Below are positions 5,762-11,639 of a stretch of 64,000 bases of DNA, piece after piece (position 1 is the stretch's first letter; every line of letters starts with the position of its first letter). Source of the stretch: Pseudonocardia broussonetiae (GTDB lineage: Bacteria > Actinomycetota > Actinomycetes > Mycobacteriales > Pseudonocardiaceae); the NCBI RefSeq assembly GCF_013155125.1, contig NZ_CP053564.1, positions 3,355,501 through 3,419,500 on the forward strand. The letters are read 5' to 3'. The notes under the pieces were generated by a model. That model ran no database searches. It was not told the DNA's origin and was given only the letters and a program-made list of their open reading frames with translations. Position numbers and translations under genes: made by a program.

Positions 5762-5790
5762 GGTGCTCGTGGGCGCTCTACGGTGGCCCG

Positions 5791-6324
5791 ATGCTGCTCA
5801 CCGCCGAGTCGTCGACGCTGCTGCTGGTGGACCTGCAGGAGCGCCTCATGCCCGTCATCCACGACGGGCCGTCCGTCGTGGCCAACGCCCGGCGCCTCGC
5901 CGAGGGGGCGGGCCTGCTCGACGTTCCGGTCTGCGCCACCGAGCAGAACCCGGCGGGGCTCGGCCCCACGGTGCCCGAGGTCGCGGCGTTCCCCCAGCTG
6001 GTGATGGCCAAGACGTCGTTCGGGGCGGTCGCCGAGGCCGGGTTCGCGACGCTCCTGCCGCCGGGCACCGAGGAGGTCGTCGTGGCCGGGTGCGAGGCGC
6101 ACGTCTGCGTGCTGCAGACCGTGCTGGGCCTGCTCGCGAAGCGGCACCGGGTGCTGCTGGTGGCCGACGCGGTGGGGTCGCGCGACCCCCGCAACCGCGA
6201 CCTCGCGATCGACCGCATGCAGCGCCACGGCGCCGAGGTGGTCAGCACCGAGATGGTGCTGTTCGAGTGGCTGCGCGACTCGCACCACCCGCGGTTCCGG
6301 GAGGTGCACAAGCTGATCAGGTGA
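5791..6324 (+). CDS. Isochorismatase-family cysteine hydrolase
   Basis: A 177-residue cysteine hydrolase of the YcaC/nicotinamidase-like superfamily. The catalytic triad is visible: Asp14 in [11 protein letters not shown], Lys74 in VMAKTSFGA and Cys106 in EAHVCVLQT (preceded by Cys101). The length is normal for the small single-domain group. The family hydrolyses amide or enol-ether bonds of small molecules; the substrate here cannot be named. TACGGT lies 6 nt before the ATG, so the mRNA may be leaderless. The 3' end overlaps the convergent M1 peptidase gene by 8 nt. Confidence 0.85.
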
Positions 6325-7606
6325 GGGGCGGCAGCGGCTTCCGGTGCAGCCAGGCGTCGAACAGGCCGGACGGGTCCGTGCCCGCGTGCTCCCCGGCCAG
6401 CGCGACGAACTGCTCCGTGGTCACCGAGCCGTGCCGGTGCCGCACGGCCCAGTCGCGCAGCAGCGCGAAGAACACCGGGTCGCCGACGCGCCCGCGCAGG
6501 GCGTGCAGGGTGAGCGCGCCGCGCTTGTAGACGCGCTCGTCGAACAGGCCGCCGACGCCGGGATCGGCCAGCACCAGGTCCGGGCGCCGGGGCGCGATCG
6601 CGGCGTGCCACTCGGCGGCGTGCGCGGCCGCGGACCGCCCGCCCGACGCCTCCGACCACAGCCACTCCGCGTACGTCGCGAAGCCCTCGTTGAGCCAGAT
6701 GTGGCGCCAGCCCGCGATCGTGAGGCTGTTGCCGAACCACTGGTGCGCGAGCTCGTGGAGCACCAGCCGCTCGTGGGTGCGGCGGCCGTCGACGTGGTTG
6801 GCGCCGAACACCGACATGCCCTGCGCCTCGATCGGCACGTCGAGGTCGTCGTCGGCGACGACGACCTGGTGCTCGGCGAAGGGGTACGGGCCGAACCAGC
6901 CGGTGAGCGTCCGCATCATCGCGGCGTGGCGGCCCAGGTCGCGGGCGGCGGCGCGGCGCAGCCGGGGCGGCACGAACGCCGTCTGCCCCGGCCCGAGCGG
7001 CAGCTCCTCGTAGCGCCCGATCTGGACGCCGGCGAGGTAGGTCGCGGTCGGCTCGGGCCGCTCGAACACCCAGGTCCGGGTGCCCGCGGAGCGCCGCCGC
7101 CCGGTCAGCACGCCCGTGGCGCGCACCGTGTAGGGCGCCTCGGCGGTGACCGTCATCCGGTACGCGGCCTTGTCGCCGACGTGGTCGTTGCACGGGAACC
7201 ACGACGGCGCCCCGACGGGCTGGCTCGCGACCAGCGCGCCGTCGGTCAGCTCGTCCCAGCCGATGTCGCCCCAGCGCCCGCGCACCGGCCGCGGGTTGCC
7301 GCCGTAGCGGACCTCCACGACGAACTGCCCGCTCACCGGACGCGCCGGGGTGACGCGGAGCTTCCCGCCGCGGTGGGTGAACCGGGCGACCCGGCCGTCG
7401 ACGGCGACCCGGCGGACCGTCAGCCCGGCGAGGTCCAGGGCGAAGCGGGGCAGCGGCGCGTCGCACTCCGCGGTGAGGACGGCGCGGGCGGCGAGCCGGT
7501 TGGCGCCGACGCGGTAGTCGAGCTCCAGGTCGTAGTGCCGCACGCGCAGGTCGGTGGTGCCGTGCCCGGGGAGGTAGGGATCGGCGCCCACCTCAGGACC
7601 CGTCAC
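6317..7606 (-). CDS. M1-family zinc aminopeptidase (Pld-like candidate)
   Basis: A 429-residue M1 peptidase: N-terminal beta-domain (about 15-190), then the catalytic domain with HELAHQW (zinc ligands His284 and His288, catalytic Glu285) and the third ligand Glu307 in [12 protein letters not shown]. The exopeptidase motif appears as EAQGMSVFG, a diverged [16 protein letters not shown] near 365 carries the catalytic Tyr. It is short for the family and lacks the large ERAP-type C-terminal domain. The start is 1 nt after the stop of the pls-like synthetase gene, so the two form an operon. In epsilon-poly-lysine producers an M1-type poly-lysine-degrading enzyme (Pld) neighbours pls, as I recall; that role is inferred here from context. 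Confidence 0.9.
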
Positions 7607-7607
7607 C

Positions 7608-10600
7608 TCAGGACCACGACGTGATCGGGTTGCCCCGCCACCGCGTGCCCGCGGGCACCTCGTCGCCGCGGGTGACGAGCGAGCCGGGGCCGACCGTCGT
7701 GCCGGCGCCGATGCCCGCGCCGGGCAGCACGATGCCGTGCGGGCCGAGGGTGGCGCCGTCCGCGAGCCGGACCGGGGACATGCTCATGATCCGATCATGG
7801 AACAGGTGGGTCTGCACGACGCACCCGCGGTTGACGGTGGCGCCGTCCCCGATCGCGACGAGGTCGGACTCCGGCAGCCAGTACGTCTCGACCCACGCCC
7901 CGCGCCCGATCGACGCCCCCATCGCGCGCAGCCACGCCGACAGCACCGGCGTCCCGGTGGCCGGGCCGACCAGCCACGGCACGGCCAGGACCTCGACGAA
8001 CGTGTCGGCGAGCTCGTCGCGCCACACGAACGCGCTCCACAGCGGGTGCTCGACGGCGCGGAACCGGCCGACCAGCACCCACTTCGCCAGCACGGCGGTC
8101 GACGCGGCCAGCACGCCCGCGACCAGCACGAACGGCCCGGCCAGCGCCGCCGCCACGAGGACGCCCGCGGCCTGCCAGACGGCCAGCACGGCGGTCAGGA
8201 CGAGGACGGCGAGCGTCGCGGACAGCACGACCGGCACCACCCGGCACAACTCGACGAGCGCCCGGGCCAGCCGCAGCCGCCGCGGCGGGTGGAACGTGCG
8301 GGCGGTGTCGGCGTCGCCCGCGGAGCGCTGCAGCGGCATCGGCGGCAGGCCCAGGTAGGACGAGCCCTTCTTGGCCTTGCGCGGCGTCGCCGACAGCACG
8401 CCGACCAGCCCGCGGTTGGGCACCGAGCGCCCCGGCGCCGTCATCCCGGAGTTGCCCAGGAACGCCTGCTTGCCGATCCGGCTCGGCGCCACGTGCAGCC
8501 ACCCGCCGCGCAGCTCGTAGGTGCCGACGAGGGTGTCGTCGGCGAGGAACGCGCCGTCCGCGACGGTCGTCATGCGGGGCAGCGCGACGACCGTCGAGAT
8601 CTCGACGTCGCGCCCGACCGTCGCGCCGAGCGCGCGCAGCCAGTGCGGCGTCAGCGAGCTCGCGTAGAGGGGGAACAGGCCGGTGCGGGCCATGCCCATC
8701 AGCCGCTCGGTGGTCCAGACCTGCCAGCCGGTGCGCCCGTGGACGGGGTGGTAGCCCGCCGCCATGCCGACGCCGAGCAGCCGCACGGCCACCAGCACGA
8801 GCAGGGCGTACGTGACGAGGTGGGCCAGCGTGGCGACGGGGACGGCCAGCAGCGACCCGGTGCCGACGACGAGCGCGAGCCCGGGCAGCGCGGCCACGGC
8901 GGGCAGCAGCCCGAGCGCGGCCGAGGTCAGGGCGTAGACCGCGACCCAGGCGCGCGACCGCGGGGCCGGGTCGGCGGGCCACTCCAGCCGCGAGCGGCCG
9001 GTGCGGGCGGCGGGGGAGCCGGCGACGCGCTGCCCGGCGGGCACCGCGCCCTCCACCGTCGACCCGGCGACGAACTCGGCGCCCTTCCCGATCCGGGTGC
9101 CCGGCAGCAGCGTGCTGCGCGCGCCGACGCGGGCGCCGGCGCCGATCCGGATGCGCCCGACGTGCACGAGGTCGCCGTCGACCCAGTGCCCGGACAGGTC
9201 CACCTCGGGCTCCACCGACGCGCCGCGGCCCACCTTGAGCAGGCCGGTGACGGGCGGCGGGGCGTGCAGGTGGACGTCGGCGCCGACCCGCGCGCCCAGC
9301 AGCCGGGCGTAGCGCAGCGTCCAGGACGCCCCGGCCACACCGGTGACGCCGGAGCGCTCGGCGAGCCGCTCCGCCGCCCAGATCCGCAGGTGCACCGACC
9401 CGGCGCGCGGGTAGGTGCCCGGCCCGACCCCGCGCAGCAGCAGCCGGGCGCCGCCCGCCGCCACCGCGACGCGCCCGGCCGGGCTGAACAGCGCGACCCA
9501 GGCCAGGGCGAGCGCCCACCACGGCACAACGATGCCGGGCCCGGTGCCGACGAGCGCGGCGACGGTCGACACCGCGCCCGCGACGGCCGTCCAGCGCAGC
9601 CCGACCAGCAGCAGCACCGGCAGCGACAGCAGCGCCTGCAGGAACCCGGTGCGCGCGGGCACCGGGGCGACCTCGCGGACCGTGGCCTCCCCGCCGCGCA
9701 GCGCGTCGACGTGGGCGGCGAGCGCGCCCAGGCGCGGGTGGCGGTAGAGGTCGTCGACGGCCACCTGCGGGTGCCGCGTCCGGATCCGCGCGACGAGCTG
9801 GGCCGCGGTGAGGCTGCCCCCGCCCAGGGAGAAGAAGTCGGCCGACGGCCCGGACACGCCCGCGCCGAGGATCTCCGCGAAGCCCTCCGCGAGCCAGGCC
9901 TCGGTCGGCGTCAGCCCGGCGGCGGAGGCGGTGGCCAGCGGCCAGGGCAGCGCATCGCGGTCGACCTTGCCCGAGGTGCGGGTCGGCAGCTCGTCGACGA
10001 CGGCGAGCAGCGGCACCAGCGCGGCCGGTAGGCGCTCGCGCAGGGCGGCCGCCGCGGCGTCGTGGTCGAGGTCGGCCGCCGCCACGTACCCGACGAGGAC
10101 CTGGTTGCCCGCCGTCGTGCGCCGGACCGCCGCCGCGGCCCCGCGGACGCCGGGCAGCGCGGCCAGCGCGGCGTCGACCTCGCCGAGCTCGATGCGCCGC
10201 CCGCCCAGCTTGACCTGCTCGTCGGCGCGGCCCAGGAACACCAGGCCCTCGGGCTCGGCGCGCACGACGTCGCCGCTGCGGTAGGCGCGGTCCCAGCCCA
10301 ACGCGGGGGCGGGCGCGAACTTCTCGGCGTCCTTGGCCGCGTCGAGGTAGCGGGCCAGCCCGACGCCGCCGATCACGAGCTCGCCGGTGCCGCCCATCGC
10401 GACCGGCTCGCCCGCCGCGTCGACGACGGCGAGCTCCCAGCCGTCCAGGGGCAGCCCGATCCGCACGGGGGCGTCGGCGTGCAGCGGCGCCGCGCAGGCG
10501 ACGACGGTGGCCTCGGTGGGGCCGTAGGTGTTCCAGACCTCGCGCCCCTCGACGGCGACGCGCGCGGCCAGCTCCGGCGGGCAGGCCTCGCCGCCGAAGA

Positions 10601-11417
10601 TCAGCAGCCGGACCTCCTCCAGCGCGTCGGCGGGCCACAGCGCGGCGAGCGTCGGCACGGTGGAGACGACGGTGATGCGCTGGGCGCGCAGCCACGGCCC
10701 GAGGTCGACGCCGGTGCGCACCAGCGCGCGCGGCGCCGGCACCAGGCAGGCGCCGTGGCGCCAGGCCAGCCACATCTCCTCGCAGGAGGCGTCGAAGGCG
10801 ACCGAGAGCCCGGCCAGGACGCGGTCCCCGGGGCCGATCGGCTCGTCGCCGTGCTCCTCGCCGCCCAGGAACAGCCGCGCCTCGGCGTCGACGAAGGCGG
10901 CCGCGGACCGGTGGGTGACCGCGACGCCCTTCGGCGTGCCGGTGGAGCCGGAGGTGAAGATGATCCAGGCGTCGTCGTCGGGCCCCGGGCGTCCGGGACG
11001 GCCGTTGGGCGCGCCGACGACGTCGAGGCCCGCGTCGGTCAGCACCGCGCAGACCGCGGCCTCGCCGAACACGAGCGCGGCGCGCTCCTCGGGGTCGTCG
11101 GCGTCGACCGGCACGTACGCGGCGCCCGCCGCGAGCACGCCGAGGACGGCGACGTAGAGCCCGGCGGTGCCCGACGAGCGGCGGACGCCGACGCGGTCGC
11201 CCACGCCGATCCCGGCCGCGACCAGCTCCGCGCGCAGCGCGTCGACCTCCTGGGCCAGGCCGCGGTAGGTCAGCAGCGTCCCGGCGGCGTCGACGGCGGG
11301 CTCGTGCGGGACGAGTTCGGCCGTGGCCGCGAGGACGTCGAGGAGGGTGCGCCCGGGGGGCGTCGGACCCGCCGTGAAGCGGGCAGGGACGAGTGCGGGC
11401 GCGAGCGCGAGGGTCAC
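7608..11417 (-). CDS. Pls/PosA-type membrane NRPS (poly-lysine synthetase-like)
   Basis: A 1269-residue single-module synthetase. The adenylation domain (about 20-490) has [13 protein letters not shown] near 152, FDAS at 208-211, NTYGPTE at 296-302, [11 protein letters not shown] near 396 and [10 protein letters not shown] (Lys484). The carrier domain has FFSLGGGSL (phosphopantetheine Ser535). There is no condensation or thioesterase domain. Instead come three membrane-plus-soluble blocks: helices near 596-645, 825-890 and 1060-1115, alternating with hexapeptide-repeat acyltransferase-like regions. That is the architecture of epsilon-poly-L-lysine synthetase Pls. By-eye alignment with GrsA gives the pocket code DAESIGTVVK, close to the lysine code DAESIGSVCK I recall for bacitracin. 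GTG 11417 has GGAAGG upstream. It is followed at once by the M1 peptidase gene. Confidence 0.88.
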
Positions 11418-11639
11418 GGTGCCTTCCGGGGCGGGGGGCTGCGGAGCAGGCGGCGGGGGCACGCGGGGCGCAGCGGTCGGCGGACACGTTAACGGGAGAT
11501 GACGCCGCGCGGGCGGGGACGTGCGGGAGTTCACGCCGGGCAAACACCGGGCGGTGGGAGGGGGGATGGCGGTAGCATCGACGCCGTCACACCGACTCGT
11601 GCCAGACGGCCCGGACGCAGAGAGCAGGCGGCGCAGCCC

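Follow-up and report, generated by a model that had tools for sequence, protein, structure and literature searches.

A probable epsilon-poly-L-lysine synthetase and peptidase gene pair in Pseudonocardia broussonetiae

The window analysed here, a stretch of 64,000 nucleotides from the soil actinomycete Pseudonocardia broussonetiae, carries on its reverse strand two adjacent genes that raise the question of which polymer the first one makes and where in the cell the product of the second one acts on it. A sequence-only reading had proposed that an adenylation-carrier synthetase and an M1 peptidase together make and trim a cationic isopeptide. Epsilon-poly-lysine is sold as a food preservative, which gives any further producer a practical interest. 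We judge it likely that the two genes are a Pls-PldII pair, making and hydrolysing epsilon-poly-L-lysine. Papers designated below by their PMC number are cited from the available portions of their text. The synthetase gene and its parts are the following (coordinates of the window):

7608..11417, reverse strand: synthetase gene, pls-type (1269 amino acids; start GTG at 11417, stop TGA at 7608-7610)
9927..11375, reverse strand: adenylation domain, residues 15-497 (68% identity to 7WEW)
10500..10793, reverse strand: pocket stretch with nine of the ten pocket residues, D209, A210, E213, S252, I273, G275, T297, V305 and V306 (alignment)
9966-9968, reverse strand: tenth pocket residue, K484 (alignment)
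9708..9896, reverse strand: carrier (thiolation) domain, residues 508-570 (Pfam)
7623..9641, reverse strand: Pls/PosA terminal domain, residues 593-1265, with three hydrophobic blocks alternating with hexapeptide-type soluble parts

The description of this protein as an adenylation-carrier protein devoid of condensation and thioesterase domains agrees with the Pfam search, in which no condensation or thioesterase family was found in the synthetase at an E-value of 0.001, and with a motif scan of the protein in which the condensation motif HHxxxDG was not found. The Pfam domains identified are AMP-binding (residues 31-356) and a hexapeptide repeat (756-790), and a carrier motif of ten residues lies at 527-536. 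The three membrane/hexapeptide-repeat blocks noticed earlier in the C-terminal part correspond to three hydropathy stretches (589-654, 823-890 and 1053-1117) obtained in a crude scan that also flags residues 84-131 inside the soluble adenylation domain; the hexapeptide repeat and a match to TIGR02353, the Pls/PosA terminal domain, accompany them. This match, at 689 bits for a curated cut-off of 423, bears out the Pls domain order that had been claimed. The A-T module, the terminal domain and the pocket Asp and Glu (see below) assign the protein, by its sequence, to the Pls/PosA-type cationic homo-poly-amino-acid synthetases.

The adenylation domain is 68% identical over 491 columns to the solved Pls structure 7WEW and the ten pocket letters are DAESIGTVVK in both, so that the code first read by eye is reproduced by the alignment and is that of Pls itself. 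The domain scores 653 bits against the Pls structure; against PosA (structure 8G95), with less of the domain covered, it scores 179 bits. The acidic residue on which the assignment depended is present as E213, equivalent to PosA E221: the pocket combines an Asp for the alpha-amine (D209) with a Glu for the side-chain amine (E213), according to the roles described in PMC10522769. PosA with either Asp217 or Glu221 changed is reported to have no activity left, and its pocket is given as DMEHNGTVSK (PMC10522769). According to the same source, the position occupied by Met218 in PosA and by Phe in the PDAP enzyme is an alanine in lysine enzymes; the window residue at this position is A210, an alanine as in Pls. 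Since the pocket is identical to that of the solved Pls and different from that of PosA, L-lysine is the best-supported substrate by analogy. A PosA-like ornithine specificity was rejected on the evidence of the pocket and of the scores, both of which point to Pls. The 12 neighbouring genes scanned include no aminomutase, Dat or Ask gene, and a polymer of beta-lysine or diaminobutyrate was rejected because no such precursor gene is present among them.

The second gene has two features of interest:

6317..7606, reverse strand: M1 zinc peptidase gene (429 amino acids; GTG start at 7606; Peptidase_M1 match at 87 bits)
6686..6757, reverse strand: M1 zinc site HEXXHX18E, residues 284-307 (motif scan)

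Synthetase stop and M1 start are spaced by a single nucleotide (7607). These coordinates, the Peptidase_M1 match and the zinc site confirm the M1 zinc aminopeptidase gene that had been placed directly behind the synthetase; the nearest solved relatives of its product are small M1 enzymes (6A8Z, 195 bits). In Streptomyces albulus pldII follows pls and codes for a poly-lysine-degrading enzyme (PMC9223678, PMC8117764), and it is reported to be translationally coupled to pls (PMC9223678).

The association of the two genes extends far beyond the window. Among 396 Actinomycetota genomes the synthetase was found in 22 (threshold E up to 1e-200; the best two synthetase and best four M1 candidates scored per genome), and in the same 22 an M1 scores 384 bits or more, against 298 bits for the next M1 down (this limit and the one of 674 bits used for the genus were chosen after seeing the score gap in the lists). 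The two genes lie within 400 nt of each other on the same strand in 21 of the 22 genomes, the exception being G359. Within the genus a synthetase of at least 72% identity is present in 19 of 62 genomes (best ten candidates scored per genome; disrupted copies in G013, G017 and G034 counted as present); it is these 19 that have an M1 scoring 674 bits or more, adjacent in every case. The synteny anticipated for relatives is thus found in both samples. The synthetase gene looks disrupted in three of these 19 genus genomes: it is split over two frames at G013:C5:1311134-1315063 and G017:C107:159239-163083 and holds one TGA at G034:C87:2741-6640. The M1 frame beside it is open in all three, and the disruptions reflect either decay or sequencing error.

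From the family that holds Corynebacterium (that of genome G099) 201 genomes were sampled. Both genes are present in 182 of them and both are missing from 16; G570 has the synthetase without the M1, and G468 (66% complete) and G479 have the M1 without the synthetase. The synthetase is therefore near-universal there, in 183 of 201 genomes and 27 of 31 genera, an unusual distribution for a supposed secondary-metabolite gene. The genome of C. glutamicum, taken as a control, has a TIGR02353 match above the cut-off. The adjacency is looser in this family, as seen from the pair distances in 139 genomes (those among the matches listed, of the 182 with both genes): up to 400 nt in 92, 401-1000 nt in 28, within 10 kb in 14 and elsewhere in five.

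Seventy-seven named loci were read from the best 80 of at least 592 places (L122, L159 and L166 were left out). Their pocket is DAESIGTVVK in 76 cases and DAESIGTVIK in one. An M1, defined here as a close relative anywhere in the same locus, is present in 67, absent in seven, and the locus ends too early in three. In locus L137, which has a broken synthetase frame, the M1 is found 2.1 kb past the end of that frame. The genus pocket table, built from 80 regions around the best-scoring matches listed, holds 86 rows including the window: 20 with DAESIGTVVK, one unread (L077, a split gene) and 65 with another pocket or without an adenylation domain. No close relative of the window M1 was found beside any of these 65 rows. 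The M1s of this type (93 rows, with the window counted twice, identical proteins from L072 and L167, and the non-adjacent L207 of G359) split from 12 other small M1s, taken as non-neighbours from the next-best scores, with an SH-aLRT support of 100. An association by chance is excluded because many genera share the pair, with order and orientation conserved.

The pair sits between an isochorismatase-like gene and phoH, in a block with hrcA, dnaJ, an RNA methyltransferase gene, phoH, ybeY, a CBS/CorC gene and the gene for a KH-domain GTPase. The pls gene adjoins phoH in eight of the 19 genus genomes and not in ten, while one has no phoH match. Comparison with a sister genome defines one further feature:

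6331..11533, unstranded: stretch absent from sister genome G026 (locus L214), the two genes as one unit (alignment)

In G026 the sequences aligned to window positions 5778-6330 and 11534 onward abut directly, and the M1 tail, which overlaps the isochorismatase gene, is the sole part of the pair outside the absent stretch. This joint absence and the co-occurrence in the same 22 of 396 genomes, adjacent in 21, establish that synthetase and M1 travel as a unit.

In a tree of 107 synthetases (FastTree, local support) the DAESIGTVVK enzymes fall into two groups, and three other Pls/PosA-family paralogues lie apart from both. The 22 rows of clade I comprise S. albulus-like Streptomyces, Kitasatospora, six Pseudonocardia rows with five distinct sequences and one Kocuria, whose branch is long and whose place is unsure. 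Clade II has 82 rows including the window (support 94). The window synthetase has a mean identity of 67% to clade II and 58% to clade I. The published 5′ primer of the Corynebacterium variabile pls gene matches one of 242 Corynebacterium genomes, with one mismatch at the start codon. The gene found in this way codes for 1321 residues with the same pocket motifs as the window, and the published 3′ primer, as far as its letters are shown, fits the end of the gene; we infer from the primer letters that it is the C. variabile pls. When included in the tree it groups with the window in clade II (83 rows, support 94), so the window enzyme is placed together with a C. variabile-type pls, not away from the characterised Pls/PosA enzymes. 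C. variabile Pls expressed in S. coelicolor yields epsilon-poly-lysine of 26-35 residues, and no polymer was detectable in the culture of C. variabile itself (PMC8117764), from which it follows that such genes can be silent.

No M1 is visible beside the six clade I Pseudonocardia synthetase rows; these lysine-pocket enzymes are found at L106/L162, L107, L108, L212 and L213. Genomes G040 and G013 each have one synthetase of either clade. The same synthetase type without an adjacent M1, found in at least three Pseudonocardia loci (L107, L108 and L213) and in seven of the 77 named loci, indicates that the M1 is dispensable for synthesis in clade I.

The two clades differ also in their peptidases. 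A hydropathy scan, which is not a signal-peptide predictor, detected a hydrophobic twin-arginine leader before the M1 domain in eight of 94 loci with a close M1 relative (maximum hydropathy 1.49-1.81; the 94 include the repeats L072/L167 and L207/L215 and one locus without score). These eight are the M1s of clade I, the S. albulus-like clade. A leader is absent in 85 of the 94 (hydropathy at most 1.21), including the C. variabile-type M1 (−0.29) and the window M1 (−0.07), for which no hydrophobic stretch was found either in the in-frame sequence upstream of its start. S. albulus PldII is reported to be on the outside of the membrane (PMC9205021, PMC9223678). No comparison of the leaders of partner peptidases was found in the available parts of PMC9223678, PMC8117764 and PMC9205021. 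The scan suggests that the M1 in the clade of the window is cytoplasmic; showing no export leader, the window M1 would act inside the cell, on polymer retained there or taken back in. The proposal that the pair makes and trims a cationic isopeptide is accordingly sharpened in its first half, where the pocket narrows the substrate to L-lysine, and weakened in its second, the M1 showing no export leader, unlike the Streptomyces PldII type. With a cytoplasmic M1 the pair would make and export the polymer and cleave whatever remains in, or comes back to, the cell, instead of simply making and trimming it.

The P. broussonetiae genome codes for other proteins of both families. A second Pls/PosA-family synthetase (G000:C1:594498-596588; L034:8027-12160) matches TIGR02353 at 727 bits and has the pocket DFECLCVVS, its last position unread. 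It is followed by genes for an A-T-thioesterase protein, a TauD dioxygenase and an ornithine-cyclodeaminase-like protein, with no adjacent M1. A link of the window pair with this synthetase was rejected on account of its pocket, its other neighbours and the missing M1. A second small M1 (G000:C1:681294-682574, L194; 284 bits), 42% identical to the window M1, is near neither synthetase. Pseudonocardia genomes have up to 15 TIGR02353 matches (G004) among the matches listed. Many of the genus TIGR02353 proteins fetched (L034-L113) are terminal-domain-only frames, several of them beside adenylation-domain frames with the code DIWQSTADDK or similar; others have the code DFECLSVVTK.

What the sequences show directly is the gene order and domain content, the pocket shared with the solved Pls, the clade of the synthetase, and that the two genes occur together and are absent together. 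In the scheme that we favour, the synthetase would adenylate L-lysine and load it onto the carrier domain, and the membrane-embedded terminal domain would polymerise it through the side-chain amine into epsilon-poly-L-lysine, whose export is probable. Hydrolysis of this polymer would fall to the M1 zinc peptidase, whose gene is read directly after that of the synthetase. In the cytoplasm it would cut polymer staying in or re-entering the cell, for self-protection or turnover, unlike S. albulus PldII reported outside. We infer the product, its chain length, its export and the peptidase substrate from characterised relatives. The putative antimicrobial role of the polymer in Pseudonocardia is unproven.

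Two alternatives change the chemistry of this scheme. The synthetase could polymerise another diamino acid (L-beta-lysine, ornithine, diaminobutyrate or diaminopropionate), the M1 being the hydrolase of that polymer; the family makes all of these polymers and an enzyme for the beta-lysine polymer is known (PMC10522769), the full pockets compared here being those of Pls and PosA. We regard this as improbable given the pocket identical to the solved Pls, the PosA score of 179 bits against 653 for Pls, the alanine A210, as in lysine enzymes, in place of the Met218 of PosA or the Phe of the PDAP enzyme, and a neighbourhood of 12 scanned genes free of aminomutase, Dat and Ask. It is less probable still that the M1 is an unrelated general aminopeptidase, adjacent by accident. 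M1 peptidases are common and the same genome has its second small M1 (284 bits) elsewhere, but the same 22 of 396 genomes carry both genes, adjacent in 21, the M1s of this type form a separate branch, and a close relative of this M1 is missing beside all 65 genus synthetase rows that have a different pocket or lack an adenylation domain. A generic M1 is set aside on this co-occurrence and on the tree.

A further alternative concerns purpose, namely that the pair is a physiological polylysine system and not an antibiotic one, the polymer being used by the cell itself, for its envelope, polyphosphate or stress handling, and recycled by a cytoplasmic M1. We hold this to be possible, if rather doubtful. 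It would suit the 183 of 201 genomes with the synthetase in the Corynebacterium-holding family (27 of 31 genera) and the missing hydrophobic leader on M1s of the window's clade, as well as “NRPS-1”, a one-module A-PCP family found in all studied strains of Rhodococcus and relatives except pathogenic mycobacteria (PMC5550956) and perhaps encoded by the same gene as the window synthetase. Wide presence does not show a role, however, and the C. variabile enzyme makes ordinary epsilon-poly-lysine (PMC8117764). Moreover, the pair is patchy in Pseudonocardia (19 of 62 genomes) and cleanly absent in the sister genome, as expected of an accessory trait.

Returning to the Pls-PldII reading, the closest functional model is S. 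albulus, which shares with the window the domain order, the pocket DAESIGTVVK, an adenylation domain of 68% identity (7WEW) and an M1 gene right after pls. It belongs to the other clade (the S. albulus-like L114 is 58% identical to the window synthetase), and the near relatives of its PldII have the twin-arginine leader that the window M1 lacks. C. variabile Pls and its peptidase (PMC8117764) share clade, pocket motifs and an adjacent leaderless peptidase gene; the C. variabile-type Pls, recognised by its primer letters, is from another genus and 57% identical. PosA, the delta-poly-L-ornithine synthetase of Acinetobacter baumannii, has the same protein family, domain order and pocket Asp and Glu, with the differences that its pocket is DMEHNGTVSK, its score 179 bits and its operon a single gene without peptidase (PMC10522769). 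NAPAA (non-alpha poly-amino acids), an annotation class of antiSMASH that is routinely predicted, is reported for Saccharopolyspora sp. NFXS83 (PMC10145562), in which locus L153 shares the window's pocket and has an M1 next to the synthetase, and for 218 of 263 Nocardia genomes (PMC12153302).

The pls-peptidase operon is already described in Streptomyces and Corynebacterium (PMC8117764), and the window pair is a further example of this known kind, in Pseudonocardia. In a search for literature on Pseudonocardia with polylysine or NAPAA no publication naming this pair was found, including in the available parts of PMC8944477 and PMC10145562, and a search on polylysine in the mycobacterial envelope found nothing relevant. 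The product of “NRPS-1” is given as unknown (PMC5550956). We tentatively suggest, as a speculative possibility, that two Pls systems exist: a Streptomyces-type one secreting antibiotic polylysine together with an exported PldII, and one of the window's type, near-universal in the Corynebacterium-holding family and including the Rhodococcus “NRPS-1”, that would supply the cell itself with polylysine, recycled by a cytoplasmic M1. The split in leaders between the clades and the near-universal spread in that family (183 of 201 genomes) deserve specialist attention. Because partner peptidases divide into exported and leaderless ones, and one large family has the leaderless type almost throughout, the natural role of polylysine can be tested in safe laboratory strains.
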